Assembly (NCBI GenBank): GCA_020057015.1
Contig: JAGVGS010000213.1
Coordinates: 1-32,184, forward strand
Direction of reading: 5' to 3'
Source: Candidatus Omnitrophota bacterium
GTDB lineage: Bacteria; Omnitrophota; Gorgyraeia; Aquiviventales; Aquiviventaceae
DNA: 32,184 bases
Each line of letters begins with the position of its first letter. Positions within the stretch are counted from its first letter, which is position 1. Both the position numbers and the translations under genes were made by a program. Below, in pieces: positions 8,610 to 31,804 of this stretch. The notes beneath the pieces were generated by a model. The model ran no database searches and had not been told where the DNA came from. It worked only from the letters and a program-made list of their open reading frames with translations.

Positions 8610-9599
8610 CTAGCGGACGAACAAGAGGACGAGCTTAGTGGTCCCCCAGGCGACCACCCCGCAGATCGGGAAGGTGAGCACCCAGGCCGTCACGATATTC
8701 CGCGTGACGCCCCAGCGCACGGCGGAGAAGCGCCGGGTGGCCCCCACCCCCATAATCGCCGTGCTGATGGTGTGGGTGGTGCTCAGGGGAATGCCAAAGT
8801 GCGAGGCGAGCACAATGGTGCCGGCCGCGGCGGTCTCGGCGGCAAAGCCGTGCACCGGCTCGAGCTTGGTGAGCGACATGCCCAGCGTCTTCATAATGCG
8901 CCAGCCGCCGATCGCGGTGCCCAGCGCCATCGTGACGGCACAGAGCAAAATGACCCACAGCGGCACGTGAAACTCCGGCATCACGCCACTCAGCAACAGC
9001 ACCAAGCAAAAGGCCCCGATAAACTTTTGCCCGTCATTCGAGCCGTGGCTGTAGGCCATGAAGCCGGCCGAGACAATCTGCAGCCGGCCAAACACCCGCC
9101 GGATGAACGCCGGATGCGCCTTTTGGAAGATCCAATAGATGGCCACCATCAAGAGCAACCCCGCGGCAAAGCCCAGGAACGACGAAAACAGCAGGCCGAT
9201 GCCCACCTTCTTCCAGCCACCGAGAATCAAGGCTTCCGGGCCGGCGGTCGCGAGTGCGGCCCCGGTGAGGCCGGCAATGAGGGCATGCGATTCGCTGGTC
9301 GGCAGGCCGTAGTACCAGGCCAGAGTGCTCCAGAAGATAATGCCCACCATGGCTGCGCCGACAGTGTAGATGCTGATCACTGAGGGATCGACAATGCCTT
9401 TGCCGATGGTGGCGGCCACGGCGGTGCCGGATAACGCGCCCAAGGCATTGAGGACGCTGGCCATCAAGAGCGCTTTGCCGGGGGAGAGCACGCGGGTGGA
9501 CACGACGGTGGCGATGGAATTAGGCGCATCGGTCCAGCCGTTGACAAACTCGGCCGCGAGGACTAAAAAGAGCACGCCCAGGACGACGGGGGAGAGCAT
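8610..9599 (-). CDS. PiT family inorganic phosphate transporter
   Basis: A 329-residue membrane protein of the Pit/PHO4 family, which takes up phosphate, usually as a neutral metal-phosphate complex with protons or with sodium. The two family signatures are NGWTDAPNSIATVVSTR near residue 20 and SHGSNDGQKFIGAF near 185. The long hydrophobic segments fit 9-10 membrane passes. The start follows the DUF47 stop by 7 bases, the standard pairing for Pit with its accessory protein. I would call it a low-affinity phosphate permease. Direct use of calcium phosphate, suggested by the neighbouring calcium pump, is inference only. Confidence 0.93.
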   Translation of the reverse strand: MLSPVVLGVLFLVLAAEFVNGWTDAPNSIATVVSTRVLSPGKALLMASVLNALGALSGTAVAATIGKGIVDPSVISIYTVGAAMVGIIFWSTLAWYYGLPTSESHALIAGLTGAALATAGPEALILGGWKKVGIGLLFSSFLGFAAGLLLMVAIYWIFQKAHPAFIRRVFGRLQIVSAGFMAYSHGSNDGQKFIGAFCLVLLLSGVMPEFHVPLWVILLCAVTMALGTAIGGWRIMKTLGMSLTKLEPVHGFAAETAAAGTIVLASHFGIPLSTTHTISTAIMGVGATRRFSAVRWGVTRNIVTAWVLTFPICGVVAWGTTKLVLLFVR

Positions 9600-9606
9600 C
9601 GCTGCC

Positions 9607-10230
9607 TCAGGCGTTCTTCAGCACGATGGCTTCAACGGTATTGGCGATGTCCTGGCACTTGTCGGTGGCGGTTTCCAGGTATTCATAGAGGCCGCGCCAT
9701 TTGATCACGGTGATGGGGTCGGGCGTGCCGTCAAACAAGGCGCCGATCGAATCGCGCAAAATGCGATCCGCCACATTCTCGAGGCGGTTGATCTCAATGC
9801 AGTGCTCGAGCACATGCTCGCGCCGCAGGTGCCGCAGCTTGGGCAGCATTTGCTGCACTTGGGCCACCTGGTCGCGGATCACCTTGGCGATTTGGTTGGC
9901 TTCCGGCCGCAGATGGTCGACCTTGTAGAGCACGAAGCGCTCGGTCGCGGCCTCCATCAAATCCAGCACATCATCCAGGGCCGTGGCCATACGGTGGATG
10001 TCTTCGCGATCCAGCGGGGTGATAAACGTGCGGTTCAGGCGCGCCATAATCTCATGGGTGATTTGATCGCCGTCGTGCTCCAGGCGCTCGATGCGCTTAG
10101 CTCCTTCCACCATGTTCTCAACCCGCGCGGTGGCCTGCACCAGCTCCTCGGCGGCCTTCACCAGGACGCCGCAGAGCTGCTCGAACATGTCAAAAAACGA
10201 TTCTTCCTTCGGAATAAGGCGAAACCCCAT
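9607..10230 (-). CDS. DUF47 family PhoU-like Pit accessory protein
   Basis: A 207-residue helical protein of the DUF47/TIGR00153 family, related to PhoU. Acidic helix motifs typical of the family are visible: ERLEHDGDQITHEI near 48-61, NRLENVADRILRD near 150, and ETATDKCQDIANTVEAIV near the C-terminus. These line metal-binding clusters in PhoU-like folds. It is the first gene of the minus-strand operon and directly precedes pit, so its likely role is to modulate phosphate uptake through Pit. The ATG is preceded by an AAGGGGG ribosome site. Family assignment is strong; the mechanism is not known from the sequence. Confidence 0.92.
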   Translation of the reverse strand: MGFRLIPKEESFFDMFEQLCGVLVKAAEELVQATARVENMVEGAKRIERLEHDGDQITHEIMARLNRTFITPLDREDIHRMATALDDVLDLMEAATERFVLYKVDHLRPEANQIAKVIRDQVAQVQQMLPKLRHLRREHVLEHCIEINRLENVADRILRDSIGALFDGTPDPITVIKWRGLYEYLETATDKCQDIANTVEAIVLKNA

Positions 10231-10383: not shown

Positions 10384-10457
10384 GGGCGGTTAGCTCAGCT
10401 GGTTAGAGCGTCTCCTTTACACGGAGAAGGTCGAGGGTTCGAGTCCTTCACCGCCCA
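10384..10457 (+). tRNA. tRNA-Val (anticodon UAC)
   Basis: The cloverleaf folds fully: acceptor GGGCGGT with ACCGCCC, D-stem GCTC/GAGC, anticodon stem TCTCC/GGAGA with loop TTTACAC giving anticodon TAC, T-loop TTCGAGT, and discriminator A. The CCA end is not encoded (the next bases are GTT). The downstream protein gene starts 24 bases later and seems to be in the same transcript. Confidence 0.95.
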
Positions 10458-10481
10458 GTTTTTCAACTCAAGGAGGGGCCG

Positions 10482-10838
10482 ATGGAACAGGCAACAGCAC
10501 CGACCGAGGTAGGCAAGTCGTCTACCGGGATGCAGGCCAACTTTGCGGCCCTGCTGGCGTACGTCTTTGGGCTGGTCACCGGGCTGGTCTTTTTCCTCGT
10601 CGAGAAAGAGAGCAAGTTCGTGAAGTTCCACGCGATGCAGTCGATCTGCTTCTCGATTGCGTTCTTCGTGGCCGGCGTCGTGCTCGCCTTCATCCCGATC
10701 ATCGGATGGGCGATCGGCATCCTGCTCAACCTGGGAGGCATCGTGCTCTGGATCGTGTGCATGGTGCAGGCGTACCAGGGTAAGTGGTTCCGGCTACCCG
10801 TGGTCGGTGATTTCGCCGCCAAGCAAGTCGGCGTCTAA
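10482..10838 (+). CDS. Small DUF4870-like membrane protein
   Basis: A 118-residue protein with a hydrophilic N-terminus (about 18 residues) and three hydrophobic stretches, near 20-40, 53-75 and 78-97. The pattern ALLAYVFGLVTGLVFFLVEKESKFVKFHAMQS is the hallmark of the DUF4870/Tic20-like small membrane family: a first helix, then a charged loop with a conserved FVKFHAMQS. The start has a strong AAGGAGG site at 10470-10476. It lies between two tRNA genes with no room for separate promoters or terminators, so it is probably processed from a mixed tRNA-mRNA transcript. The function of the family is unknown. Confidence 0.85.
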   Translation: MEQATAPTEVGKSSTGMQANFAALLAYVFGLVTGLVFFLVEKESKFVKFHAMQSICFSIAFFVAGVVLAFIPIIGWAIGILLNLGGIVLWIVCMVQAYQGKWFRLPVVGDFAAKQVGV

Positions 10839-10855
10839 CGTCGTTCTCCCCATTT

Positions 10856-10932
10856 GGGGGCGTAGCTCAATTGGTTAGAGTGGCGGCCTGTCGAGCCGTA
10901 GGTTGCGGGTTCGAGCCCCGTCGCCCCCGCCA
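10856..10932 (+). tRNA. tRNA-Asp (anticodon GUC)
   Basis: Acceptor GGGGGCG pairs with CGCCCCC, the D-stem is GCTC/GAGT-like, the anticodon stem GCGGC/GCCGT carries loop CTGTCGA (anticodon GTC), and the T-loop is TTCGAGC. Discriminator G and the CCA end are encoded (10929-10932). Its 3' end is duplicated at 24388-24414, making it the likely integration site of a genomic island. Confidence 0.95.
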
Positions 10933-11193: not shown

Positions 11194-12525
11194 ATGAATA
11201 TCATTATGATGACGAATACGTATAAGCCGATTATGGGCGGCCTCGAGAAGTCCATTGAATCATTCTCGAAAGAGTTCCGCAAGCGCGGCCACCGTGTGAT
11301 CATCGTCGCTCCTGAGTTTGAAGGCATGGTGCCCGAGGACGATGTCATCCGCGTTCCGGCTATTCAGCATTTCAGCGGCACCGATTTTTCCCTGCAGCTG
11401 CCGATTCCCGGCGTGTTGGCTGAAACGCTAGGCGACATGGTGCCGGACATCATCCACTCCCACCACCCATTTTTAGTCGGCAATACCGCGTTGCGCATGG
11501 CGTATAAGTTCAATAAGCCGCTTATTTTTACGCACCACACGCTCTATGAACAGAACACCCACTTTTTTCCCGGGGATTCCGAGGCGATGAAACGGTTTGT
11601 CATCGAATTGTCCACGGGGTATGCCAACCTCGCTGACCGGGTTTTTGCGCCCAGCGAAAGCGTGATGGAGCTGATCAAAGAGCGGGGCGTTGAGACCCCG
11701 ATTGAAGTGGTGCCAACCGGATCCTACACCGAGCGCTATGCCAAAGGGGATGGGGAACAAATGCGCAAGCGCGCGGATATTCCGAAAGAGGCTTATGTCG
11801 TCGGTCATTTGGGAAGGCTATCCCTCGAGAAAAACCTGGAGTTTCTCGCTAAGGCGATTAGTCTTTTTCTTTTGCAGGAGAAAAGGGCGCATTTTCTTCT
11901 TGTCGGCAAAGGCCCCTCGGAAGAAACGCTGCCGGCCTTGTTTCAGGAAGCCGGCGTCGCCGACCGGTTGCATATGACCGGGCCGCTATCCGGCCAAGAC
12001 TTGGTGGATGCTTACCATGCCATGGATGTTTTCGCTTTTGCCTCGCAGAGCGAAACCCAGGGGCTCGTGCTTGTGGAAGCCATGGCTTCGGGTTTGCCGG
12101 TTGTGGCTTTGGATGCGCCGGGTGCTCGGGAAGTGGTGAAAGACGAGGTCAACGGCCGGCTGCTGATGAGTGAGCGGGCCGAAGACTTTGTCGCCGCCCT
12201 TCAGTGGGTCATGCGCCAGAGCCCTGAATCGCTTGCAAAGATCAAGGTAAGCGGGCTTGAAATGGCGGATGAATTTTCCATGGGACGGTGCGTTTCGCGG
12301 GCCCTGGAAATCTATACTCCGCTTGCAGCGGATCAGCAGTATAAGCGCAAGCAAAGCGATGAAAGCGGTTGGGCTAAAGCCGTTCGGCTTATTCAAGCGC
12401 AGTGGGATATTACGAAGAACATCACAAACGCCACCAAAGAGGCGGCCTTACCTTCTCCGGATAAGCAAGATAAGCCAGCAAAGGATCCTGTTGAGGGCGA
12501 GCCGTTTTCCACCCCGCGGGCTTAA
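11194..12525 (+). CDS. GT4-family glycosyltransferase
   Basis: A 443-residue GT-B fold retaining glycosyltransferase (group 1). The N-terminal domain opens with NIIMMTNTYKPIMGGLEKSI and holds HSHHPFLVG and the FTHHTLYEQ segment near 112-120, also seen in diacylglycerol glucosyltransferases of the GT4 family. The C-terminal domain has GHLGRLSLEKN, VGKGPSEE and the nucleotide-sugar E-x7-E motif (E287, E295). A Lys-rich tail of about 60 residues follows the fold. I chose ATG 11194 because GGGGAG lies 7 bases before it; a GTG at 11179 is also in frame. It lies 21 bases before the AP-EEP gene, probably as one operon. A lipid or cell-surface acceptor is plausible; the substrate is unknown. Confidence 0.85.
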   Translation: MNIIMMTNTYKPIMGGLEKSIESFSKEFRKRGHRVIIVAPEFEGMVPEDDVIRVPAIQHFSGTDFSLQLPIPGVLAETLGDMVPDIIHSHHPFLVGNTALRMAYKFNKPLIFTHHTLYEQNTHFFPGDSEAMKRFVIELSTGYANLADRVFAPSESVMELIKERGVETPIEVVPTGSYTERYAKGDGEQMRKRADIPKEAYVVGHLGRLSLEKNLEFLAKAISLFLLQEKRAHFLLVGKGPSEETLPALFQEAGVADRLHMTGPLSGQDLVDAYHAMDVFAFASQSETQGLVLVEAMASGLPVVALDAPGAREVVKDEVNGRLLMSERAEDFVAALQWVMRQSPESLAKIKVSGLEMADEFSMGRCVSRALEIYTPLAADQQYKRKQSDESGWAKAVRLIQAQWDITKNITNATKEAALPSPDKQDKPAKDPVEGEPFSTPRA

Positions 12526-12546: not shown

Positions 12547-15000
12547 ATGATTGTCCCGGCAGAAGCACTGCGGCAGCGATTACGCGACTTCTTCAGCCGA
12601 AGCGAGTGGCTGGCGCGGTTTTTGAACATAGCACCTCCCAAAGGCATTTCAGCCGAGCCGGGCCTCGTGATGATACAAATCGACGGCCTAAGCCTGACAC
12701 AGCTTGAGCGCGCCATAACAAAAGGGCACATGCCCTTTCTGAGCCGGCTGTTGAATCAGGAGCAATATAGCAAGTACCGGCACTATACCGGCATTCCCTC
12801 CAACACGCCTGCGGTGCAGGGAATGCTTTTTTACGGTGTTAAAGCCTGCGTTGCCGCCTTCAGTTTCCGGGATAACCGCAACGGGCAAGTCGGCAATATG
12901 TTTACTCCGGCGACCGCAGCAGCCGTGGAAGCGGTCCTGAAGGATAAAGGCGAAGCTTTATTAGACGGCGGCAGCGCCTATGGAGATATTTTCACCGGAG
13001 GGGCTAAAGAAGCGCGCTTCTGCGCCGCTTCCATAGGCTGGGGCAGTTTGCTTAAAGTAGCCAATCCGGCAGGCGTGCCGTTCACCCTGCTGTTTAACCT
13101 GCACATTCTAGCCGGTGCCTTGCTTCTCGCTGTTGTCGAGTTTTTCCTGGCCCTTATCGATTCGTTCCGCGGGATCATTTTCGGGGAAAAGCTGCGGGAA
13201 GAAATTCAGTTCATCCCGCTGCGGGTGATGGTTTGCGTTGTGCTGCGGGAAATCGTGGAGATGAGCGTCCGCATCGATATCGCCCGCGGAATTCCGGTTA
13301 TCCATGCTAATTTTGCCGGTTATGACGAACAGGCCCACCACCGCGGTCCGACTTCGGCTTTTGCGCATTGGTCGCTTCATGGAATCGACGGGGCGATCCG
13401 GCGCGTCTGGAAGTCTGCGCGGCGCTCGCGCCCTCGCGACTACGATGTGATTATCTATTCAGACCACGGGCAGGAGGAAACAGTTGATTATCCAACCGAA
13501 ACCGGCCGGTCGCTGGAAGAAGCGGTGGCGCAAGTCTTCAGCGAAAAGATCTCAGCCGGTGGCTGGAAAACAACGCCATTTATCCCAAGCAATCCGCACT
13601 GGCGAGCACAGCTGCTGCGCAATCCCGCCAATAAGCCGGTGTCTGCCGCACCGGTAGCTCTTGCACCAGCGGTTGAGGGACTGGAAAAGCAGCCGGATTT
13701 GAATGTTACGATTACCGCCATGGGCCCCTTGGGCCATATTTATCTGCCGCAAGCTTTGACATCGAGTGAGAGCGAAATGATCGCGCGAAAGCTCGTGGAT
13801 GAAGCAAAAATTCCCCTTGTCATGCGGGCGGATGGAACGGGGCGGGTGTTTGCCTGGAACGCGCAGGGAAGATTTGCGCTTCCCGATGAGGCGGATAAAG
13901 TCATTCAGCCGGACCATCCGTATTTTGATGAGGTGAAAAGAGACCTGGTCGACCTGTGCCATCATCCCGATGCAGGCATGTTTGTGATTTCCGGATGGAG
14001 ACAAGGGGCTAAATCGCTTACCTTCCGCAAAGGCGAACAGGGAAGCCATGCCGGCCCGGGAGTTGAGGAAACAAACGCGTTTGCCTTGCTTCCTTTCGGG
14101 GTACTTCCGCGTCATTTAAGAAACAAAAAAGCCATTGATACGCTCGAGCTACGGCAGATCGCGCGGTCCCTGTTGGGCCACCCCGTAGAGCACAAGCCTG
14201 CCGCAGAGGTTGCTTCAGGCGCGGTTGCAACTGTGCTGCGCATCATGACGTATAACGTGCATGGCTGTATGGGAAGGGATGGGAAAGTCTCCCCTGAGCG
14301 CATCGCCCGGATTATTGCCAGGCATGAACCGGATGTCATTGCGCTGCAGGCATTGAATATGCGGGAAGGCCTCAATCAGGCCGAGGTTATCGCCCGCAAG
14401 CTGTCTATGCCGTTTCACTTCCGTTCAGCCGTTGCCGCTGAGCAGGGACGCATCGGTAACGCTATTTTCAGCCGGTTTCCCATGCGACTTGTCCAGGCGC
14501 AGGAGCTGCCGCGATTTTCCAAATTGCCGCTGGTGAAACCGCGGGGTGCCTTGTGGGTTGAAATCGAATTGCCAGGCAAAAAAGTGCAGGTGCTCAATAC
14601 CCACTTAAGCCTCTATTCGGCGGAGGGCCTGGTGCAAGCGCAAGCCCTCTTAGGCAATGGATGGCTCAAGCATCCGGCCTGTGCAGAGCCGGTCATTCTG
14701 TGCGGCGATTTCAATGCATTGCGCCAATCAAAAATCGGCAGCCTGCTTGAGAAGACGCTTAAGAATACTCGCGTAGAGCCTAATAGGCGCGGCTTCTTCG
14801 CCTCGGTGCCAAGCTACCCCGGGGGGCCGGGGGACCATATTTTTGTAAGCCCTGAAATAACAGTGAAGGCGTCATGGGCTCCCAAGACAGACTTGGAAAA
14901 AACCGCATCAGACCACTTGCCGCTTATTACAGAAATAGAAATAGCCGGCCCAAGCCCGGCTGGTGAACCGGCAAGCACTGCGGCTCAACAGATATCCTAA
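12547..15000 (+). CDS. Fusion protein: alkaline-phosphatase-superfamily domain plus EEP domain
   Basis: An 817-residue two-part protein. Residues about 38-500 resemble type I phosphodiesterase/nucleotide-pyrophosphatase-like members of the alkaline phosphatase superfamily: MIQIDGLSL (D46), TGIPSNTPAVQG with candidate nucleophile T87, YDEQAHHRGP (D260, H264) and YSDHGQEE (D306, H307). A hydrophobic segment lies at about 176-206. Residues about 563-805 form an endonuclease/exonuclease/phosphatase domain: TYNVHG (N570), NTHLSL (H686), GDFNA (D721, N723) and SDHLPL (D789, H790). The conserved metal-binding Glu of the LQE motif is Ala602 (ALQALN), so EEP activity may be weakened or changed. The likely target is a phosphodiester in a lipid or glycan, judged from the adjacent glycosyltransferase; this is inference. 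Confidence 0.8.
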   Translation: MIVPAEALRQRLRDFFSRSEWLARFLNIAPPKGISAEPGLVMIQIDGLSLTQLERAITKGHMPFLSRLLNQEQYSKYRHYTGIPSNTPAVQGMLFYGVKACVAAFSFRDNRNGQVGNMFTPATAAAVEAVLKDKGEALLDGGSAYGDIFTGGAKEARFCAASIGWGSLLKVANPAGVPFTLLFNLHILAGALLLAVVEFFLALIDSFRGIIFGEKLREEIQFIPLRVMVCVVLREIVEMSVRIDIARGIPVIHANFAGYDEQAHHRGPTSAFAHWSLHGIDGAIRRVWKSARRSRPRDYDVIIYSDHGQEETVDYPTETGRSLEEAVAQVFSEKISAGGWKTTPFIPSNPHWRAQLLRNPANKPVSAAPVALAPAVEGLEKQPDLNVTITAMGPLGHIYLPQALTSSESEMIARKLVDEAKIPLVMRADGTGRVFAWNAQGRFALPDEADKVIQPDHPYFDEVKRDLVDLCHHPDAGMFVISGWRQGAKSLTFRKGEQGSHAGPGVEETNAFALLPFGVLPRHLRNKKAIDTLELRQIARSLLGHPVEHKPAAEVASGAVATVLRIMTYNVHGCMGRDGKVSPERIARIIARHEPDVIALQALNMREGLNQAEVIARKLSMPFHFRSAVAAEQGRIGNAIFSRFPMRLVQAQELPRFSKLPLVKPRGALWVEIELPGKKVQVLNTHLSLYSAEGLVQAQALLGNGWLKHPACAEPVILCGDFNALRQSKIGSLLEKTLKNTRVEPNRRGFFASVPSYPGGPGDHIFVSPEITVKASWAPKTDLEKTASDHLPLITEIEIAGPSPAGEPASTAAQQIS

Positions 15001-15206: not shown

Positions 15207-15557
15207 ATGCATCGAAAGCGAATGGGGTACGTACTGTTTCTGGGCGGCCTCTTGAGCCTTGTTGCCGGTCATTCAACCGTGTATGCCTTGGGTTCGACAG
15301 CTGGCGATAAATTGACGCGGGGACTCGCCAACACCATTCAAGGTATTTTCGAGGTTCCACGGAACATCAGTAATACGACTGAAACGCAAGGCCTTCTGAC
15401 CGGTTTGACTGTGGGATTAGGTAAGGGCCTGGGCTATGGGGTGCTGAGGACGCTGGTCGGGCTCTACGAAGTCGTGACGTTTCCCATCCCGGTGCCCGCG
15501 GGCTATGCGCCTATCATCCAGCCGTATGCGTGGAACACTGGCGGAATGTGGCTGTAA
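15207..15557 (+). CDS. Secreted TIGR04073-family exosortase-associated protein
   Basis: A 116-residue protein with an N-terminal signal peptide (basic start, hydrophobic stretch, cleavage probably after VYA near residue 27). The mature part carries the family pattern KLTRGLANTIQGIFEVPRNI, then a QGLLTGLTVGLGKGLGYGVLRTLVGLYEVVTF stretch and a final PVPAGYAPIIQP. This matches the small proteins known as TIGR04073, often found in genomes with an exosortase system. The start has a strong AAGGAGG site at 15194-15200. It is the first gene after regulatory element copy 1 and is probably co-transcribed with the following small membrane proteins. The biochemical role of the family is unknown. Confidence 0.8.
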   Translation: MHRKRMGYVLFLGGLLSLVAGHSTVYALGSTAGDKLTRGLANTIQGIFEVPRNISNTTETQGLLTGLTVGLGKGLGYGVLRTLVGLYEVVTFPIPVPAGYAPIIQPYAWNTGGMWL

Positions 15558-15621
15558 TGTGAGAAGGTCTTCAGGCAGGAAGTGGTTACGGTCTTTAAGG
15601 AAGGAAGGAGGAGGCTAAGCG

Positions 15622-16029
15622 ATGGTGTTAGAAGTAGCAGCCGTTATCGCTGTCGTCATTTTCGCGGTTTTGGCCGCGGCGACCATTCAGACTCAACTTA
15701 AATTGCAGCGGACCTTGGCGGAAGCCCAGCGCGTGCTGGGCACCGTACAACAGGAAATCCCTGTGCTGGCGGTGAACCTCAACGCCATGGCTTGCGCCGT
15801 TACTGCGTTGTCGATAGAAGCGCGGCGCGGTGTTGATCAGGCCTCTGGTTTTCTAGGGGCGGTCGAAGAGGCCGGTGAAGGGCTGAAACAGATGCAGCGT
15901 CTCGTGTATGGAAAAGGCGACGCATGGTATATGCAGGCGCGAGGAGTTTGGGCAGGCGTGCGCGCCGCGTCATTAGTACTCTTGGGGGCGGTGTCACTAA
16001 CAAAGGGAAGACATTCCAATGGACAATGA
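15622..16029 (+). CDS. DUF948-like membrane-anchored protein
   Basis: A 135-residue protein with one N-terminal transmembrane helix (about 4-25), an amphipathic segment with the hydrophobic heptad spacing of a coiled coil (about 28-90) and a weakly hydrophobic stretch near 112-125. This layout matches DUF948/YoxC-type proteins. It has an AAGGAGGAGG ribosome site, and its end overlaps the following YtxH gene by 11 bases, which suggests coupled translation. YtxH and DUF948 proteins are often neighbours in other bacteria and are regarded as general stress or envelope proteins. Assignment is by topology and context rather than by a sharp motif. Confidence 0.6.
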   Translation: MVLEVAAVIAVVIFAVLAAATIQTQLKLQRTLAEAQRVLGTVQQEIPVLAVNLNAMACAVTALSIEARRGVDQASGFLGAVEEAGEGLKQMQRLVYGKGDAWYMQARGVWAGVRAASLVLLGAVSLTKGRHSNGQ

Positions 16030-16324
16030 ACAGCAAGGCGGGTCGGCGGCGGTAGGTTTGGCGTTTTTGCAAGGAGCGGTAATCGGAGCCATTGGGGCAT
16101 TGTTATTAGCGCCTCGTTCCGGCCGAGAGTTCCGCAAACAAATCAAGGGGTATGCACAGCAGACAGGCGAGAAATTACGCACCGTGGCGGGCAATGGACA
16201 GGATGCGCTTCAGCACGGCATGGAAGAGGGAAGACATCTCGCCGAAAAAGGCCGTCAGATTCTCAGAGAGGCTGCAGAGGCCGGCCAGAGCGCCATCAAA
16301 CAGGAGCGTGGTCGTCCTTCGTGA
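16019..16324 (+). CDS. YtxH-domain protein
   Basis: A 101-residue protein. The pattern FLQGAVIGAIGALLLAPRSGREFRKQIKGYA (about 17-47) is the YtxH signature: one glycine-rich membrane helix ending in LLLAPxSGxExR, then a charged amphipathic helix rich in Glu, Lys and Ala. YtxH proteins are small stress-associated membrane proteins of unclear mechanism. The gene overlaps its upstream neighbour by 11 bases and its stop overlaps the downstream GTG start (GTGA), so the four genes from 15207 form a tight operon. Confidence 0.88.
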   Translation: MDNEQQGGSAAVGLAFLQGAVIGAIGALLLAPRSGREFRKQIKGYAQQTGEKLRTVAGNGQDALQHGMEEGRHLAEKGRQILREAAEAGQSAIKQERGRPS

Positions 16325-18135
16325 GCGATATGGGCGCTGAAGCAAAGGCCGTTGAAAAAATGATCAAGGGGATAGGGGCCATGCCGCACGCGCAGGGTGT
16401 TGCGTTTCGCGTGTGGGCGCCCCATGCGCAACGCGTATCCGTTATCGGGTCATTCAACGACTGGAATGGCAGCAAGCACCCCATGCAAGCTGAGGAGAAC
16501 GGCACCTGGTACGCCAATGTGGCCGAGGCGCATGTCGGCGATGAGTATCGCTACCAATTGGCGACGCCGAAGGGCGAGGTGAAGCGCATCGATCCGTATG
16601 CCCGCGAAGTGACCGGCTCGGTCGGAAACGCCATTATCCACGACTCGAAGTTCGACTGGGAAGGGGACAACTTCCACCTCACGGCGTGGAACGAGCTGGT
16701 CATCTATGAGCTGCATGTCGGCACTTTCAATGATGAGGCGGGCGGTGACCAGTCGGGCAAGTTCGCATCGGTGTCGGCTCGATTGGGGCACTTGAAAACC
16801 CTTGGCGTGAACGCCATCGAGATCATGCCGGTGGCCCAGTTTGCGGGAGAGCGGTCATGGGGGTACAATCCCGCCCATATTTTCTCGATTGAAAGAGCGT
16901 ATGGGGGCTCGTTGGCATTTAAGCGATTTGTCAAACAGGCCCATAAGCAGGGCATCGCGGTGATTCTGGATGTGGTGTACAACCACTTAGGTCCCAGTGA
17001 CCTCGATTTATGGCAGTTCGACGGCTGGTCTGAAAACAATCGCGGCGGCATTTACTTCTACAACGATGACCGAGCGAAGACGCCCTGGGGGGAAACCCGG
17101 CCGGATTACGGGCGCGGCGAGGTGCGGCAATTCATCCGCGACAATATCTTCATGTGGCTTGAGGAGTACCACGTCGACGGCCTGCGCTTCGACTGCACTC
17201 AATTCATCCGGACCATGAATGGATCGAACGACCACGAGCTGCCTGAGGGTTGGAGCCTGCTCCAATGGCTCAACAGCCAGGTTGCCGAGAAGTTTCCTGG
17301 CCGGATTACGATCGCCGAGGATTTGCAGAATGATAAGCGGCTCACCCAGGACGCCGGATCCGGCGGAGCAGCTTTCGGTTCGCAATGGGATGCCAACTTC
17401 GTGCACCCGATCCGCCAGGCGGTAATTGCTCCCGAAGATCAACAGCGGTCTTTAATTGCCATTCGCGATGCGCTGACTTACCGCTACAACGATGATGCCT
17501 TCGACCGGGTCATTTACAGCGAATCGCATGATGAGGTGGCCAACGGCAAAGCGCGCGTCCCGGAAGAAGTGAACTCGCAAGACCCCAAAGGCTGGTATGC
17601 GCAAAAACGCTCAACCTTGGCCGCCGCCATGGTCTTCACGGCCCCCGGCATTCCCATGCTCTTCCAGGGCCAGGAATTTTTAGAAGGCGGATGGTTTCGC
17701 GATACGGTGCCTATCAATTGGGACCAAAACGAAGAGTTCCATGGCATTGTTCGCCTCTACCGCGACCTCATCCGTTTGCGTCTTAACCGCGGCGGCTTTA
17801 CCCGCGGCCTCTGCGGGCAGTTTACGCAGGTCCATCACTTAGACGATGAGCGCAAGGTTCTAGCTTTTCACCGCTGGGAGAAGGGTGGGCCAAAGGACGA
17901 CGTGGTGATCGTTGCCAATTTTTTCCATCAGCCGCAAGACGGCTACGTCATCGGCTTTCCGGCGGCAGGCGCTTGGAAATTACGGTTCAACAGCGATTGG
18001 CAAGGCTACAGCGATGATTTCAAAAATCATCCAAGCAGCGATGTAACCGCCGGAGCAGGCGAGCACGACGGCTTGCCCTTCCATGCAGCGCTTTCGATAG
18101 GCCCCTACAGCGTGCTGATCTTTTCACAACTCTAA
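16321..18135 (+). CDS. GH13 alpha-glucan enzyme, branching-enzyme type
   Basis: A 604-residue alpha-amylase superfamily protein. An N-terminal CBM48/E-set domain (about 24-100: VAFRVWAPHAQRVSVIGSFNDWNG) precedes the catalytic barrel. Conserved regions are DVVYNH (217-222), GLRFD with nucleophile D291, ITIAEDL with acid/base E333, and SHDE with transition-state residue D404. This combination is typical of 1,4-alpha-glucan branching enzymes (GlgB-like) and of the related trehalohydrolase TreZ. I prefer branching enzyme but cannot exclude TreZ. The GTG start overlaps the YtxH stop by 4 bases. No other glycogen or trehalose gene is in the window. The 3' end overlaps the convergent lysR end by 12 bases. 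A role in making a compatible-solute or storage glucan would fit the stress-type neighbours. Confidence 0.85.
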   Translation: MSDMGAEAKAVEKMIKGIGAMPHAQGVAFRVWAPHAQRVSVIGSFNDWNGSKHPMQAEENGTWYANVAEAHVGDEYRYQLATPKGEVKRIDPYAREVTGSVGNAIIHDSKFDWEGDNFHLTAWNELVIYELHVGTFNDEAGGDQSGKFASVSARLGHLKTLGVNAIEIMPVAQFAGERSWGYNPAHIFSIERAYGGSLAFKRFVKQAHKQGIAVILDVVYNHLGPSDLDLWQFDGWSENNRGGIYFYNDDRAKTPWGETRPDYGRGEVRQFIRDNIFMWLEEYHVDGLRFDCTQFIRTMNGSNDHELPEGWSLLQWLNSQVAEKFPGRITIAEDLQNDKRLTQDAGSGGAAFGSQWDANFVHPIRQAVIAPEDQQRSLIAIRDALTYRYNDDAFDRVIYSESHDEVANGKARVPEEVNSQDPKGWYAQKRSTLAAAMVFTAPGIPMLFQGQEFLEGGWFRDTVPINWDQNEEFHGIVRLYRDLIRLRLNRGGFTRGLCGQFTQVHHLDDERKVLAFHRWEKGGPKDDVVIVANFFHQPQDGYVIGFPAAGAWKLRFNSDWQGYSDDFKNHPSSDVTAGAGEHDGLPFHAALSIGPYSVLIFSQL

Positions 18136-24550: not shown

Positions 24551-24618
24551 GAGAGGTAGCCTGGCGGGGTGTGGTGAACCCTCGCTGTCGAGGCTCTCCA
24601 GCCTACGGCACGTGTGCC
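24551..24618 (+). promoter_or_regulatory. Potentially structured leader of the LamG-protein gene
   Basis: The bases can fold as an outer GAGAG/CTCTC stem enclosing GGGT/ACCC and CCTCG/CGAGG hairpins, followed by a small GGCAC/GTGCC hairpin right before the ribosome site. I do not recognise a known riboswitch class; in particular, the GEMM core is absent. Confidence 0.25.
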
Positions 24619-24636
24619 TGCGAAGGAGATTATGTC

Positions 24637-27048
24637 ATGAAGAAGCTTCTGTTCTTGGTAGCGTTGCTCGCCTTTGGTTTCCTCGCTCCTTCCTCTGCCC
24701 ATGCTGCACAGCCTGTGGGTTATTGGAATTTTGAGGAGCAGACGGGCTCGCAGGTCATTGGTCGCCCTTTAAGAAATTCCGGAATGTTAACAGGAGCGAG
24801 CCGAGGTGGTGGCAAGGTAGGCATGGGCGTATGGATGAATGGAAGCGGAGGTGTCACCATTTATCCAAGCGAAGACTTTAATTCCTTGCTCGGAGGATTC
24901 ACATTCTCGGCGTGGATCAACCCTAGCAGTAATGTGTCCGGGTACGTGACCATTTTCTCGAAAAGCCCGAACCCTTTAGCTACAAACCCCGCAGATGTTC
25001 ACAATCAACTGCACATTCGCGTGCATAATGATGGCCACCTGCAATTCGTGCTGAACAATCATGTAGATTTCGGGGGCTTCCAAGGCTTTACTCCGGCGGG
25101 TGTTGTTCCTCACGGCTCCTGGTCTTTCGTTACTTGGACCTATGATGAAACCATCCACCGCATTCATGTCAATGGTGTTGAGGTATTCAGCGCCTCATTC
25201 AATCAGCCCTGGACTGGGAACAGCGAACCGCTGGGCATTGGTCAAGGAGTCGAACCCTTTGTCGGATCTATCGATGAGGTTCGTGTGTATAAGGGGGCGC
25301 AAACGCTGGAAGAAATCGTTGCCGATATGAACAACACCACCGTGCAACCCACGGGTGTCTATTTAGACTGGGGCTTTCCGATGGTTACAGCAGCGAGCCC
25401 GCAAGAGGTAAAAATTGAGTTCCAAGTTAGTAATGGGGGACCCGACAATTTAACAGAGTCCATGTTTGAGGACTTTGGCAATATTGGCGGAGGACCATTT
25501 GGCTCTTTCCCTGGTGAGTATTATACCCAGACAGTTGAACCCTGGTATGTTGGGCTGAATATGGCTCCTGGAGAAAGCAAGCAGTTTCATGTCATTTCTT
25601 TAACTGCGACAGGTCAAGGGGCTCCCCCTGGTGAGTATGGTGGGGAGGGATGGATGAGACTTAAGCTTGAATTCGATCTTTTTGATCGATTTGGATCGCA
25701 ATCTTCAAGGTATCCCAGGCCGTTTAGATTCACAATTCTTCCACCTCCCAATCTCTCCGATATACTTACCTTTCCTAACATTTCCGGTCTTCAATTTCAA
25801 GTCATCACGTCAAACATCGCTGCACCGCTCATGGGCAAAATTGGCTCTGGAAGGGATTTAACAGTAGATAGTAATGGAAATATCTATGTGGGTGGAGTTT
25901 ACCGCGGCGCTCCAGGTTACAGTTCGCCAGGCTCGGCAGCGGTGATGAGGATTCTTCAAGATGGGACGAGCCATGTGGTTGCCTACGTTAACCCGCCTGA
26001 GGGATTTCAGAGTCCTGAACCTCCCGAGGGCATGGCTTTTGATCCTGATGGTAACTTAATTGTACAGTTCACACTAAAGTCTGTACCCGACGGGTACATG
26101 ACAGTGCATCCGTTGGTCAGAATCACGGGTCTTTCATCAGCTGTTGTTGAACCCGTTGCGACTCCGACAATTGACCCATCTGGTGGCGTATTCGATTACC
26201 CTGTTGATGCGACAATCGCAACAGCTACGGCGGGTGCAGAAATACGCACGACACTCGATGGAAATATCCCTACAGCGCTGTCAGCGTTGTATACGGGGCC
26301 TATTCAGATATCTCAAAGCGGGGTCTTGAAAGCGAAAGCCTTCAAGTTTGGCAGGTCAGATAGTGCTGTTGCCAGCGCCAGCTTCACGATCCAGGCAGCT
26401 AGCCCGATCATTAGTCCAGCCGGAGGGAGCTTCGTCAGCTCAGTTCAGGTGAGCCTATCATCGAGCACGAGCGGTGCGACGATACGTTACACAACCGATG
26501 GAAGTACCCCAAACTCTGGCTCAACGGTTTACGGAAGCCCGTTTACGCTAACAAGCAGCAAGCCGGTGAAAGCTTATGCCAGCAAGTCTGGGATGACGGA
26601 CAGCGGTGTGGCCAGCGCGGACTTTACTATTACCCAGCCAGCTGGAACAATCACGATCCCTGCGTCAGGAACCTCAACCCGCAGCACCGGCTGGCTCACC
26701 ACCAACAGCACCGAGCTGTGGTATTGGAATGCGAACCAGTGGCTGGAATACTCAGTAGATTTTGGGGCGGGTGGCAGCCGGACAATCAGTGCCACGGCGA
26801 TCAACCATAACAGCGCTGGGCTGGGCCTGCCTGCGGGCTATACCTTCAATCTCACTGTGCTGATCGATGGCGTCAACAAGGGCACCCTCAAGGTCCCGGG
26901 CTCCACCACGCTCTATAAGACCGGCAGCCTCGTCGTGACCGCCCCAGCCGGCGTCCACACCGTGCGATTTACCTGGACCAATGATGTGTGGACCGCGGGG
27001 CTGTATGACTCAAACATCCAGGTCAAAGAGGTGTCCATCGCGCCGTGA
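24637..27048 (+). CDS. Large secreted protein: LamG-like, chitobiase-like and CBM-like domains
   Basis: An 803-residue secreted protein. Residues 1-23 are a signal peptide ending in SAHAA. A LamG/concanavalin-like domain (about 24-230) follows, with GYWNFEEQTGS, FTFSAWINP and the closing GSIDEVRVYKGAQTLEEI. The middle (about 235-500) is a mostly beta region with a short NHL-like stretch (LTVDSNGNIYVGG, MAFDPDGNL). Then come two chitobiase/hexosaminidase C-terminal-type domains (about 508-668, each with T-x-D-G-x-x-P) and a CBM6/35-like domain (about 669-803: WLEYSVDFG, then GVHTVRFTWTNDVW). The ATG has an AAGGAG site; an upstream GTG in frame (24571) is less likely. The role is probably surface adhesion or glycan binding; no catalytic motif is seen. 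Confidence 0.82.
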   Translation: MKKLLFLVALLAFGFLAPSSAHAAQPVGYWNFEEQTGSQVIGRPLRNSGMLTGASRGGGKVGMGVWMNGSGGVTIYPSEDFNSLLGGFTFSAWINPSSNVSGYVTIFSKSPNPLATNPADVHNQLHIRVHNDGHLQFVLNNHVDFGGFQGFTPAGVVPHGSWSFVTWTYDETIHRIHVNGVEVFSASFNQPWTGNSEPLGIGQGVEPFVGSIDEVRVYKGAQTLEEIVADMNNTTVQPTGVYLDWGFPMVTAASPQEVKIEFQVSNGGPDNLTESMFEDFGNIGGGPFGSFPGEYYTQTVEPWYVGLNMAPGESKQFHVISLTATGQGAPPGEYGGEGWMRLKLEFDLFDRFGSQSSRYPRPFRFTILPPPNLSDILTFPNISGLQFQVITSNIAAPLMGKIGSGRDLTVDSNGNIYVGGVYRGAPGYSSPGSAAVMRILQDGTSHVVAYVNPPEGFQSPEPPEGMAFDPDGNLIVQFTLKSVPDGYMTVHPLVRITGLSSAVVEPVATPTIDPSGGVFDYPVDATIATATAGAEIRTTLDGNIPTALSALYTGPIQISQSGVLKAKAFKFGRSDSAVASASFTIQAASPIISPAGGSFVSSVQVSLSSSTSGATIRYTTDGSTPNSGSTVYGSPFTLTSSKPVKAYASKSGMTDSGVASADFTITQPAGTITIPASGTSTRSTGWLTTNSTELWYWNANQWLEYSVDFGAGGSRTISATAINHNSAGLGLPAGYTFNLTVLIDGVNKGTLKVPGSTTLYKTGSLVVTAPAGVHTVRFTWTNDVWTAGLYDSNIQVKEVSIAP
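26405..27036 (+). repeat. CHB_HEX-like plus CBM-like DNA cassette, copy 1
   Basis: This cassette is closely similar at nucleotide level to 30490-31105 and 31165-31780 in the neighbouring gene, with long exact runs such as the region coding GTLKVPGSTTLYKTGSLVV. Similarity this high between genes suggests recent duplication or gene conversion. Confidence 0.75.
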
Positions 27049-27719
27049 GCTGCGCAGGAATCCTGAATCCTGGGACACATGCCTTAGGAGAAAGAGCTTT
27101 GCATTGTATACACCTGGATAACAAGCGCGTGTGCCGTCGAAGTTGGCTTCATCTGGCAAGTGGTTTGTTCGTTGTCTGCTTTGGCGGGTGGTTAATTAAC
27201 GACCATCGTGCCAGCGCACCCCAAGGAGCGGACGTCGCGTTCTACCGATATTCCCCATCGATGTCTATGCAAGATGTCAGCCTGACCGGCTATCTCGATC
27301 GGAATGGTGTTTTGGTCAGAGGCTGCACTATCGAGGGAAGGCGCCTGGGCTTGGAGAGTAAGCGCTACGGCGTCTTCAAGATCGCTGCGGAGAAAGTGAT
27401 CGGCATTCATGACGCCAAGGCTACGTTTCTTGAGGCCGATCAGGTGGTTTCGGTTGTTACTGCGAAGAAAGCCGTGACGGAGGCCATTCGCGAGCGGGGA
27501 ATCGCTGGGGCTGTGGCCGGCGGTCTCCAGTTTACTGGCGAGGTGGTGCTCACAACGAAGGATCAGCGCGTTCTCACGTGTGATCGCATGCGCTGGGAGC
27601 CTTCGACCGGCCATCTTGTTGCGGGCAGTTGCATTTACTATTGGGACAATAAGATCGCGCGAATCGAGGCAGTCAACTCAGATCCGGAACTTAAGAATCT
27701 TCGGGAGGGTTCAACGTGA
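27045..27719 (+). CDS. Membrane-anchored protein, possibly LptC/OstA-like
   Basis: A 224-residue protein. The first 34 residues are polar and basic, followed by one membrane helix (about 35-52: HLASGLFVVCFGGWLI) and a mostly beta extracytoplasmic domain. The latter contains FTGEVVLTTKDQRVLTCDRMRWEPSTGHLVAG, which resembles the repeating pattern of LptC/LptA OstA-like domains (strand with Asp/Gln-Leu, then a D-R-x-x-W-x-x-x-x-x-x-L/I-x-G ending). LptC-like is my best guess but not firm. The GTG start overlaps the previous stop (GTGA), and its own stop overlaps the next start, so it is bound into an operon with two huge repeat proteins. No other Lpt gene is present. Confidence 0.6.
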   Translation: MSCAGILNPGTHALGERALHCIHLDNKRVCRRSWLHLASGLFVVCFGGWLINDHRASAPQGADVAFYRYSPSMSMQDVSLTGYLDRNGVLVRGCTIEGRRLGLESKRYGVFKIAAEKVIGIHDAKATFLEADQVVSVVTAKKAVTEAIRERGIAGAVAGGLQFTGEVVLTTKDQRVLTCDRMRWEPSTGHLVAGSCIYYWDNKIARIEAVNSDPELKNLREGST

Positions 27720-30700
27720 ACATGCGGCGTGGTGTCTGGGCTTCGGTCCTGCTTGGGTTTATCATCTGGGCGCCTCCTTGCTATTCTGCAGATACAACCT
27801 CCCCACACACTTCGCAGCACAATCCATCGGTCAGCGCGGTCGGTGTCGACCTGGATACGAGTATTAGCCTGCATATTCTGGATCTGGACAGCGGCGTGAA
27901 TCAGTCCACCATAAGAATCAGCGTGGAGGGCGCACTGGTGTATGACGGTTCAACGCCACTTTCCTACCCGAATGTGACCATAATGGGCTCCCCCTCTGAT
28001 TTCAGCCTCACGTACTATCCGCCTGCAAGCTACGCATTTCTTCAGGTCATCAATGTGGCCGTGGATGCAGCGGATTTATCGGGTAATGCGATGCCGCAAA
28101 ATGTCTATTCCTTCACCATTCGGGGCAGGCTCCTTCCGGATGAGGCGGTGGAGCGAGGAAAGAACGAGCTTCTTCAACGTAAGGATGTCTTCAAAGCAAA
28201 CCAATTGTTCAACGAAGCCCTATCGCAGAACCCGAATCACCCCAAAGCCCTATTCTGGCATGCCATCACGCGCTTCTCTGAGAATAGTGAAGCTGTAACG
28301 CTGGTTCGAGACTCGCAAGTTATCGATGAACATAACCAAGCACTCTTCGATGCGCAAGGCAGATGGGGCGCTGATCTGAATCAGCCGTTTCCGAACCTGA
28401 CAGAGTATCAACAGGGAGGAATCGGTTTGCTTCCAGACATCGACGCGGCACTCGCAGAGCTTGCTCCGCTGGACCAGACATTTAGCGATACGCTGTCGGT
28501 TGTGCAGATATTCGATTTGGATTATGGGGAGGCAAAGCTTTATGAAGCCGGTCTGCTCGCAAGCAAGGCGGCAGTTCACATCGGTGCGGCGTACGATGCG
28601 GATTACGCGGATCTGGCCCCGCGGTTTATCCAGCCAACGTCTGGCAAGGGACGGGAGATTATTCGGCAGATTATGCTTGAGTATCCGCAGGGGTTGACTC
28701 TCTTACCAGGCGCGGCAGCACATCTTGCACAGGCCAAGGAAGCCATTCAGCAGTCGCTGGAGGCGTATCTCGAAGCTTCAGCCTTCATACGCCACCGCTC
28801 CGACAATGACGGGTTGAACCATCTTGTGCGGTTCTACGACCTTGACGACACGCAGCAAGAGAGGTTCATAGCGCTCTTCGCGGAGGCCATGCTGCGCGGG
28901 AAGCTGGCGGATCTTCAGGACCACCTAGCTAATCCGGGTGGGTTTCCCATGTTGAGGGTCAGCTACGATGCCTACATGGACGGCCTGAATGAGTTCAATA
29001 AGGTACCGCTGAGGCCTCGCAAGTTTGATATCAATGAGTTCTTGTCATATCCCAAGAATGTCAGGGCCTATCTCAATGAGTTCTTGAGCAATGACTTTGT
29101 CGTCAATTCATTTTCCGACCCCACCTTGGGACAGGTGCTGCCCGAAGCGACGCCGCCCGATTACAATTGTGTCGCCGGCCGGGGAGCGAACTTCAAGAAG
29201 CGTTTCCCCGCTGTGGTTACTTGGTCCGGAGGTCAGGCTTCGGCGCAACTGGCTTGGGATCCGGTTGACCCACGATTTGTGGGCGCCTTTCTGCGCGCTG
29301 AGATCTACCGTTCCGCTTCGCGGCCGGTTGACTCCAGCTCCCAGCTGATGACGACCCTCACGAATCCTACTGTGACGGCATTCCTGGATGTGGATCTGGA
29401 TGAGGCGGTTGATAGCTACTACTATCGTATTTACACCTACTATAATTTTGGCGGCGGCCGCACCGCGACAGCTTATAGCGCGGTGGCTGAGGCGGTTCTG
29501 CGAAGCTCTCCCGATACGCAGTATCCGGAAATAGTTGTGACGGTGCCCAGCGAGGGCGATTCGATCACGGCGGACCGGGTCACCGTAACCGGCAGCATCG
29601 CGAATGAAAGAGGCATTGCGTACGCTGTCATCAAAGTCAATGACGGCTCATTCGAGGGGCTGGCTTTGGATGAAGAGGCGGGTGGGTTCTCCCATGAAGT
29701 GCCTTTGCGTCCGGGACTGAATCAGATAGTACTTCAGGCATCCAACTACTCGAATCTTGTTCAGGAACATGCGCTGAACGTATGGAGGTTGGTCGACATA
29801 ACGCCGCCAACTACCACCGCCACCCCGCCAGGCGGCAACTACATAAGCCCGGTGAATGTTGTCTTGGGCGCGAACGAATCCGCGACGATCTACTACACAA
29901 TCAATGGGAGCGCGCCGACGACCGCCTCCTCGGTATATGCGAGTGCGATACCTATCAATGGTAATACCACACTCAAGTTCTTCGCGGTAGACAACGCTGG
30001 AAACCCGGAGTCTACAAAGACAGAAACCTATATTGTGAGCCAGGGTGCGCAGACAATCATCATTCCAGGAGCCAGCACCTCCAATCGCAGCAGCGGGTGG
30101 AGTGTCGGGGGCACCGAAGCCTATGCGTGGAACGCCCAGAACTGGCTGGAGTACTCGGTAGATTTTGGGCTGGGCGGGACTTGGACTTTCAGGGTGACGG
30201 CGAAGAACCAGAACAATCCAAGCGCACCAGGCCTTCCGGGTGGGTACGCCTTTAATCTGGCGGTACAGATCGATGGCGCCAGCAAGGGCAATCTGCAGGT
30301 CCCTGGGTCCACCACTACCTATCAGACGGGTAGCTTGGCGGTGAGTGTTCCGGCAGGGGTCCACACCGTTCGATTCACCTGGACCAACGATGCGTGGAGT
30401 TCTGGGGTCTACGACGCGAACATCCGTGTGAAGGAAGTATCGTTTACCTCAGAAGGGGTGCCTCCTGTGGATCCGGTCGCGACGCCCACGATCACGCCGG
30501 CTGGAGGCAGTTTCGTCAGCTCAGTTCAGGTGAGCTTATCATCCACCACCAGTGGAGCGACGATCCGCTACACAACCGATGGAAGTGCCCCAAGTTCTAG
30601 CTCAACGGTTTACGGAAGCCCGTTTACGCTAACAAGCAGTAAGACGGTGAAAACTTATGCCAGCAAGTCTGGGATGACGGACAGCGGGGTGGCCAGCGCG

Positions 30701-31804
30701 GACTTTACTATCACCCAGCCAGTTGGGACGATCACCATCCCCGCCGCCAACACCGCCACCCGCAGCACCGGCTGGCTCACCACCAACAGCACCGAGCTGT
30801 GGTATTGGGCGGCTCACCAATGGCTGGAATATGCGGTCGACTTCGGCACCGGCGGTAGCCGCACCATCAAGGCAACTGCTATCAACCACAACAGCGCCGG
30901 CCTCGGGCTACCGGCAGGGTACACCTTCAACCTGGACGTCAAAATCGACGGCGTGGTCAAAGGCACCCTCAAGGTCCTGGGCTCCACCACGCTCTATAAG
31001 ACCGGCAGCCTCGTTGTGACCGCCCCAGCCGGCGTCCATACCGTGCGCTTTACCTGGACCAATGATGTGTGGACGGCTGGGCTGTATGACTCGAATATTC
31101 AGGTGAAGGAAGTATCGTTTACCTCAGAAGGGGTGCCTCCTGTGGATCCGGTCGCCACACCCACGATCACGCCGGCTGGAGGCAGTTTCGTCAGCTCAGT
31201 GCAGGTCAGCCTATCATCGACCACGAGCGGTGCGACGATCCGCTACACAACCGATGGAAATACCCCGAACTCTGGCTCAACGGTTTACGGAAGCCCGTTT
31301 ACGCTAACAAGCAGCAAAACGGTCAAGGCTTATGCCAGCAAGTCTGGGATGACGGACAGCGCTGTAGCCAGTGCGGACTTTACTATCACCCCACCAGCTG
31401 GAACGATCACGATCCCTGCGTCAGGAACCTCAACCCGCAGCAGCGGCTGGCTCACTACCAACGGCACCGAACTGTGGTATTGGGCGGCTAACCAATGGCT
31501 GGAATACGCGGTGGACTTCGGCACCGGCGGCAGCCGCACCCTGAGTGCTGCCGCCATCAACCACAACAGCGCTGGGCTGGGCTTGCCTGCGGGCTATACC
31601 TTCAATCTCACCGTGCTGATCGATGGCGTCAACAAGGGCACCCTCAAGGTGCCCGGCTCCACGACCCTCTACAAAACAGGCAGCCTCGTCGTGACCGCCC
31701 CAGCCGGCGTCCATACCGTGCGCTTCACCTGGACCAATGATGTGTGGACCGCGGGGCTGTATGACTCGAATATTCAGGTCAAAGAGGTGGCGGTGGGGCC
31801 GTAA
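27716..31804 (+). CDS. 1362-residue secreted repeat protein with TPR-like and CBM-like domains
   Basis: After a signal peptide (residues about 1-25) comes a Big_5/Ig-like domain (about 35-140). A helical region with at least one TPR-like unit (about 143-185, NELLQRKDVFKANQLFNEALSQNPNHPKALFWHAITRF) leads into a longer helical stretch to about 430. A fibronectin-like segment (about 500-600) and a beta domain of the Big/cadherin-like kind (about 605-690) follow. The C-terminal 650 residues alternate chitobiase-like domains and three CBM6/35-like domains (WLEY-x-VDFG to GVHTVRFTWTND). Two consecutive units have a period of 675 bases. The GTG at 27716 overlaps the preceding stop; ATG 27722 is an alternative. 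No catalytic site is seen; a large adhesin or glycan-binding matrix protein is the likely role. Confidence 0.8.
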   Translation: MNMRRGVWASVLLGFIIWAPPCYSADTTSPHTSQHNPSVSAVGVDLDTSISLHILDLDSGVNQSTIRISVEGALVYDGSTPLSYPNVTIMGSPSDFSLTYYPPASYAFLQVINVAVDAADLSGNAMPQNVYSFTIRGRLLPDEAVERGKNELLQRKDVFKANQLFNEALSQNPNHPKALFWHAITRFSENSEAVTLVRDSQVIDEHNQALFDAQGRWGADLNQPFPNLTEYQQGGIGLLPDIDAALAELAPLDQTFSDTLSVVQIFDLDYGEAKLYEAGLLASKAAVHIGAAYDADYADLAPRFIQPTSGKGREIIRQIMLEYPQGLTLLPGAAAHLAQAKEAIQQSLEAYLEASAFIRHRSDNDGLNHLVRFYDLDDTQQERFIALFAEAMLRGKLADLQDHLANPGGFPMLRVSYDAYMDGLNEFNKVPLRPRKFDINEFLSYPKNVRAYLNEFLSNDFVVNSFSDPTLGQVLPEATPPDYNCVAGRGANFKKRFPAVVTWSGGQASAQLAWDPVDPRFVGAFLRAEIYRSASRPVDSSSQLMTTLTNPTVTAFLDVDLDEAVDSYYYRIYTYYNFGGGRTATAYSAVAEAVLRSSPDTQYPEIVVTVPSEGDSITADRVTVTGSIANERGIAYAVIKVNDGSFEGLALDEEAGGFSHEVPLRPGLNQIVLQASNYSNLVQEHALNVWRLVDITPPTTTATPPGGNYISPVNVVLGANESATIYYTINGSAPTTASSVYASAIPINGNTTLKFFAVDNAGNPESTKTETYIVSQGAQTIIIPGASTSNRSSGWSVGGTEAYAWNAQNWLEYSVDFGLGGTWTFRVTAKNQNNPSAPGLPGGYAFNLAVQIDGASKGNLQVPGSTTTYQTGSLAVSVPAGVHTVRFTWTNDAWSSGVYDANIRVKEVSFTSEGVPPVDPVATPTITPAGGSFVSSVQVSLSSTTSGATIRYTTDGSAPSSSSTVYGSPFTLTSSKTVKTYASKSGMTDSGVASADFTITQPVGTITIPAANTATRSTGWLTTNSTELWYWAAHQWLEYAVDFGTGGSRTIKATAINHNSAGLGLPAGYTFNLDVKIDGVVKGTLKVLGSTTLYKTGSLVVTAPAGVHTVRFTWTNDVWTAGLYDSNIQVKEVSFTSEGVPPVDPVATPTITPAGGSFVSSVQVSLSSTTSGATIRYTTDGNTPNSGSTVYGSPFTLTSSKTVKAYASKSGMTDSAVASADFTITPPAGTITIPASGTSTRSSGWLTTNGTELWYWAANQWLEYAVDFGTGGSRTLSAAAINHNSAGLGLPAGYTFNLTVLIDGVNKGTLKVPGSTTLYKTGSLVVTAPAGVHTVRFTWTNDVWTAGLYDSNIQVKEVAVGP
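30431..31105 (+). repeat. 675-bp tandem cassette, unit 1
   Basis: Linker (SEGVPPVDP), chitobiase-like domain and CBM-like domain. The first 50 bases are identical to the start of unit 2 at 31106. The period is exactly 675 bases (225 codons). Confidence 0.85.
31106..31780 (+). repeat. 675-bp tandem cassette, unit 2
   Basis: Second copy of the linker, chitobiase-like and CBM-like cassette, in frame with unit 1. Its CBM part is nearer in wording to the cassette in the LamG gene than some parts of unit 1 are, which suggests gene conversion between the two genes. Confidence 0.85.

Follow-up and report, generated by a model that had tools for sequence, protein, structure and literature searches.

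The window analysed here is a contig of 32,184 nucleotides (JAGVGS010000213.1) from Candidatus Omnitrophota bacterium, whose draft genome comprises 1.73 Mb in 223 contigs and is 73.6% complete. It carries a gene for a protein in which an alkaline phosphatase (AP) superfamily domain is joined to an EEP domain. A GT4 glycosyltransferase gene (448 aa) ends 21 bp 5' of the AP-EEP ORF (Table 1). The listed GT4 ORF begins at GTG 11179. ATG 11194 is the likelier start, judged from the sequence, because it is the invariant Met6 of the GT4 family and has GGGGAG upstream. A second AP-EEP gene in the same genome (G000:C129:2-856; L008, L135) is truncated, as its contig stops ahead of the EEP part, and this contig is without a GT4 of the window's GT4 family.

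Table 1. Features of the window and of related loci
Feature	Position or loci	Strand	Basis or remark
Pit-type phosphate transporter and PhoU-like (DUF47) gene	8610-10230	-	Divergent from the GT4/AP-EEP pair
tRNA-Val(TAC) and tRNA-Asp(GTC), DUF4870 gene between	10384-10932		
GT4 glycosyltransferase	11194..12525	+	Pfam; ORF; invariant M6; upstream sequence
AP-EEP fusion protein gene	12547..15000	+	ORF, Pfam, conservation, AlphaFold2 model; ATG start, 817 aa
AP-superfamily NPP-like domain (~residues 36-530)	12652..14136	+	Pfam Phosphodiest; conservation; profile match to NPP 2gsn
Hydrophobic helical hairpin (residues 176-247) inside AP domain	13072..13287	+	Hydropathy; AlphaFold2 model helices
EEP domain (~residues 563-800), with N570, H686, D721, N723, D763, D789, H790	14233..14946	+	Pfam, conservation, fold matches
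GCA (Ala602) replacing the metal-binding Glu codon	14350..14352	+	Alignments, codon comparison
Exosortase-system-associated TIGR04073 protein, then DUF948-like (below cut-off) and YtxH small proteins	15207-16324		Directly downstream of AP-EEP
GH13 branching-enzyme or TreZ-like protein	16321-18135		Well below NCBIfam equivalog cut-offs
Two large proteins with chitobiase C-terminal, CBM6 and other carbohydrate-binding repeats, flanking a 224-aa protein without Pfam match	24571-31804		
Six-hairpin GH15-like protein, upstream of GT4	L011:2850-5111, L013:3375-5684, relatives		Model, no Pfam match
EEP and cardiolipin-synthase-like PLD operons, same glycosidase family	L127, L132		
EEP and cardiolipin-synthase-like PLD operons, same GT4 family	L129, L130		
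Single-ORF GT4-AP-EEP loci, Omnitrophota	L013, L022, L032, L034, L040, L080, L091, L093, L096, L102, L104, L110, L136		

The first-pass annotation proposed that two unrelated phosphoesterase folds are joined in one protein, and this is a true fusion. A single ORF encodes both domains, and Pfam places Phosphodiest at residues 40-362 (E 2e-13) and Exo_endo_phos at residues 567-790 (E 4e-19), both above the curated cut-offs. AlphaFold2, with 48 family members as input, gives one confident two-domain model (pLDDT 86, pTM 0.89). Since the relatives align end to end with the window protein at 37-55% identity, the fusion is far beyond chance. Read by eye, the N-termini of the AP-EEP proteins show no obvious signal peptide, which suggests a cytosolic location.

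The AP domain matches PF01663 with 51 bits against a cut-off of 23, and the same profile is matched by all 48 family members (48/48 at E 0.001). Its metal ligands were annotated as intact, and indeed the two-metal ligands and the Thr nucleophile (D46, T87, D260, H264, D306, H307, H501) are present and near invariant in relatives. We take these residues to fill the corresponding roles in NPP numbering. The profile match to bacterial NPP is weak (E 2e-4). A hairpin is inserted in this domain; its hydropathy reaches 2.42 in the window protein (19-residue span) and is also high in most of the 48 relatives. In the AlphaFold2 model it is made of helices H176-183, H185-211 and H216-247. It is a probable membrane contact.

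The PF03372 match of the EEP domain spans the full profile (1-225). The top Foldseek matches obtained with the AlphaFold2 model are EEP structures, including 4ruw, Tdp2 and nocturnin, and the best 50 structure matches of the whole AP-EEP model are EEP structures as well. Residues N570, A602, H686, D721, N723, D789 and H790 all stand in the alignment where they had been annotated. Together with D763, the motif residues other than A602 are essentially invariant across the family. The metal-binding Glu of the LQE motif is absent from the window protein, and the GCA codon for Ala602 was confirmed. The loss of this Glu had been presented as a feature of the system, with the suggestion that AP-EEP fusions might always lack it. 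Homologues with a normal LQE motif were found instead. Glu occupies the site in 81/81 other sequences covering it in a first alignment, and in 112/112 after the phylum-wide search was added, a count in which a few genes appear more than once with different trimming. The sister gene L009, 54-55% identical to the window gene, has the Glu codon GAG. Glu loss as a family trait is thus ruled out, and it is local to this genome because all other homologues covering the site keep the residue. The relatives use GAG or GAA, and GAA to GCA is one base; in the aligned sequences, Ala602 is a local single-base change and does not define the family.

The change at Ala602 is likelier to be a real, lineage-specific substitution than a sequencing error, as far as the alignments tell, since other conserved EEP sites have also changed in the window. 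At sites constant in L009 and five outgroups, nine changes are found only in the window (602, 604, 626, 652, 657, 663, 664, 753 and 776), against four comparable changes found only in the sister, a suggestive difference. Substitutions at sites conserved among relatives include D604N, H626R and E664K. The terminal branch of the window is 0.62 against 0.29 for the sister in the EEP domain, and 0.46 against 0.36 in the AP domain; relative-rate tests of the window EEP domain against the sister did not reach significance. An assembly or sequencing error, with an intact EEP site in the real protein, is improbable. The single-base distance from GAA, the fragmentation of the draft genome into 223 contigs and the retention of 44/48 strongly conserved EEP columns would suit it. 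However, a random error at precisely this codon is improbable a priori, and the nine altered sites and the longer EEP branch speak against it, non-significant though the rate tests are. Because 44 of the 48 columns are kept, the window EEP domain is no wreck; broad decay of the domain is unsupported by these columns and by the rate tests. The matching change E240A in the EEP deadenylase Ccr4/CNOT6L abolishes activity (PMC4613498). By this analogy, the EEP domain of the window protein is probably catalytically weak or dead through E602A.

The AP-EEP fusion extends well beyond this genome. Scanning GTDB genome contigs gave 80 loci, the majority with full-length AP-EEP fusions, and Gammaproteobacteria, Thiobacillus, Elusimicrobia and Spirochaetia are among the groups in which they lie. 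More than 70 full-length fusions were recovered, from Omnitrophota, Nitrospirota, Nitrospinota, Pseudomonadota, Desulfobacterota, Planctomycetota, Verrucomicrobiota and others. The follow-up suggested earlier, a search for other AP-EEP fusions, was thus answered by a family spread over many phyla, with a member in a named strain, Thiobacillus denitrificans RG (L036). The phylum-wide search gave a match in 45/384 genomes. No viral relatives were found. Among plasmids, there are 425 matching records, not one of which covers 80% of the query, and in the eight matches listed the coverage is about the C-terminal third of the query. One plasmid region with a match is without annotation. Neither Pfam nor NCBIfam holds a dedicated AP-EEP model, and no paper on this domain combination was found among the open-access full texts searched. 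AP-EEP is a widespread and apparently undescribed family. Its domains are each of a known kind; their combination is conserved across many phyla.

The GT4 neighbour, whose conservation had been left as a question, is indeed kept. A GT4 of the same family lies directly upstream on the same strand in 49/67 loci with usable flank, and in six of these 49 it is fused. The GT4s of relatives in the aligned set are 43-54% identical to that of the window. In 13 Omnitrophota loci, GT4, AP and EEP form a single in-frame ORF of ~1210-1290 codons (14 distinct strings, one of which is a cut copy). These fused proteins are strong evidence that phosphodiester and glycosyl chemistry are coupled. The upstream GT4 is absent in 18/67 loci, which indicates that the AP-EEP fusion can work without an adjacent GT4. 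The window GT4 matches Glycos_transf_1 (6e-35) and Glyco_transf_4 (5e-31), and its E-x7-E motif is present, with E292 and E300 invariant in the GT4 alignment. The annotated resemblance to glycosyltransferases of lipids stands in part. The closest NCBIfam equivalogs include lipid glycosyltransferases (alpha-monoglucosyldiacylglycerol synthase) and the solved relatives include PimA, but GT4 profiles score equally well with the small-molecule transferase MshA.

Further partners recur around these genes. In 44/63 loci, a protein of ~750-770 aa without a Pfam match is encoded upstream of the GT4. Its predicted structure (pLDDT 82) is a six-hairpin barrel closest to the bacterial glucoamylase 1lf6; its fold relatives are glucoamylase, dextran dextrinase and GH94 phosphorylases. 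The model suggests a GH15-like six-hairpin glycosidase. In the neighbourhood clustering, a VTT (TVP38/DedA) membrane protein often precedes the glycosidase gene. VTT/DedA proteins are lipid flippases or scramblases (PMC10127716), a role that fits lipid handling. The window locus has only GT4 and AP-EEP: a search of the genome it belongs to, at 73.6% completeness, gave no glycosidase, and Pfam scans of the window gave no VTT gene. Other Omnitrophota loci carry a stand-alone EEP, ~40% identical to that of the window and with the Glu kept. Next comes a cardiolipin-synthase-like PLD in which both HKD motifs are present. These loci include the same glycosidase family, the same GT4 family or VTT proteins (Table 1), and stand-alone EEPs of Nitrospirae and Verrucomicrobia likewise adjoin PLD or VTT genes. 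Where AP-EEP has its AP domain, these loci have a PLD, and this swap points to chemistry on the phosphodiesters of phospholipids.

The best reading of the whole is a membrane-bound glyco(phospho)lipid enzyme system. AP-EEP itself may be a bifunctional phosphodiesterase attached to the cytosolic face of the membrane and working with the GT4, a reading to which we give slightly less than an even chance. The hairpin would dip into the inner membrane and place both active sites at the cytosolic face, where the GT4 would act. The Thr87/two-metal AP site and the EEP site would act on the phosphodiester headgroups of a glycerophospholipid or phosphoglycolipid, either cleaving or transferring them, and the coupled GT4 would glycosylate the lipid acceptor. 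In loci that have them, the six-hairpin glycosidase would trim the glycan and the VTT protein would move the lipid between leaflets. In the window genome, the AP domain and the GT4 would remain as working parts beside a probably weak or dead EEP site. PF23226, the EEP domain of PGAP2IP/CWH43, is matched by 42/48 family members, and the PGAP2IP/CWH43 family is tied to GPI-lipid remodelling (PMC6686924). Against a lipid role, nucleases and functionally uncharacterised proteins are among the nearest EEP relatives with a solved structure. Of the first-pass proposal of a route that trims and sugar-modifies a phosphorylated lipid or polymer, the glyco/phospholipid role is kept as the best reading; we infer the lipid substrate, the reaction direction and the order of steps, and likewise the effect of E602A. 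A wider version is more tentative: VTT, GH15-like glycosidase, GT4 and AP-EEP would together make or remodel a novel phosphoglycolipid. The EEP would be the shared element, next to which AP and PLD could replace one another as the part that handles phospholipid.

Two other readings are unlikely, to a similar degree. AP-EEP could strip phosphate headgroups to give diacylglycerol, from which the GT4 would make a glycolipid, saving phosphorus. PlcP with a glycosyltransferase is an established pair of this kind (PMC4796936), and the Pit phosphate transporter and PhoU-like gene of the window are just upstream of the pair, in divergent orientation. However, the neighbourhood clustering contains no recurrent phosphate-uptake gene; the glycosidase and VTT recur instead, and this scheme leaves the glycosidase unaccounted for. 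That third conserved gene, if it does encode the modelled six-hairpin glycosidase, would fit glycan processing, in which the glycosidase and the two phosphodiesterases degrade or edit a GT4-made phosphoglycan, either a phosphodiester-linked surface glycan or a lipid-linked precursor. Yet the clustering shows no recurrent set of flippase, ligase or polymerase genes of the kind a surface polymer needs, and the apparently cytosolic location of AP-EEP (no obvious signal peptide by eye) argues against it. A nucleotide or nucleic-acid phosphodiesterase with no lipid connection is the least probable, since its likeness to Tdp2, nocturnin and bacterial NPP among the closest characterised folds is opposed by the frequent GT4, glycosidase, VTT and PLD partners and by the hydrophobic hairpin.

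Under the preferred glyco(phospho)lipid reading, the interest lies in an operon conserved across many phyla rather than in the missing Glu. The tempting claim is corrected: the lost Glu belongs to one genome and not to the system. With GT4, AP and EEP coupled in frame, a so far unknown membrane glycolipid pathway can be put to the test, in the Thiobacillus strain as well.

To our knowledge, none of the ybhP-clsB-ybhN operon, the PlcP-Agt pair and the CWH43 EEP domain shares the AP-EEP fusion. YbhP is an EEP protein. PlcP belongs to the calcineurin-like metallophosphoesterases rather than to AP or EEP, and the AP-EEP protein has no Pfam match to that fold. The EEP superfamily (PF03372; Tdp2, nocturnin, CNOT6L, 4ruw) has the same fold and the same N, H, D-x-N, D and D-H motifs, whereas the window protein is fused to an AP domain and is without the metal-binding Glu. 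Xanthomonas NPP (2gsn/2gso) of the AP superfamily has the same Thr nucleophile position and metal-ligand pattern. The window AP domain differs from it in its weak overall similarity, the inserted hydrophobic hairpin and the fused EEP. In PlcP-Agt, a phosphodiesterase is found beside a lipid glycosyltransferase, as in the window (PMC4796936). The C-terminal EEP domain of CWH43/PGAP2IP is common to the 42 family members given above, with no match in the window's own EEP at E 0.001; unlike CWH43, the AP-EEP protein is without the membrane CWH43 part and there is no GPI. The ybhP-clsB-ybhN operon of Enterobacteriaceae, in which ClsB is a PLD-type cardiolipin synthase (PMC9241728), resembles the stand-alone EEP relatives described here, which adjoin Cls-like PLD genes. 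Neither a GT4 nor a glycosidase is named for this operon, whereas the window has a fused AP domain in the place of the PLD.
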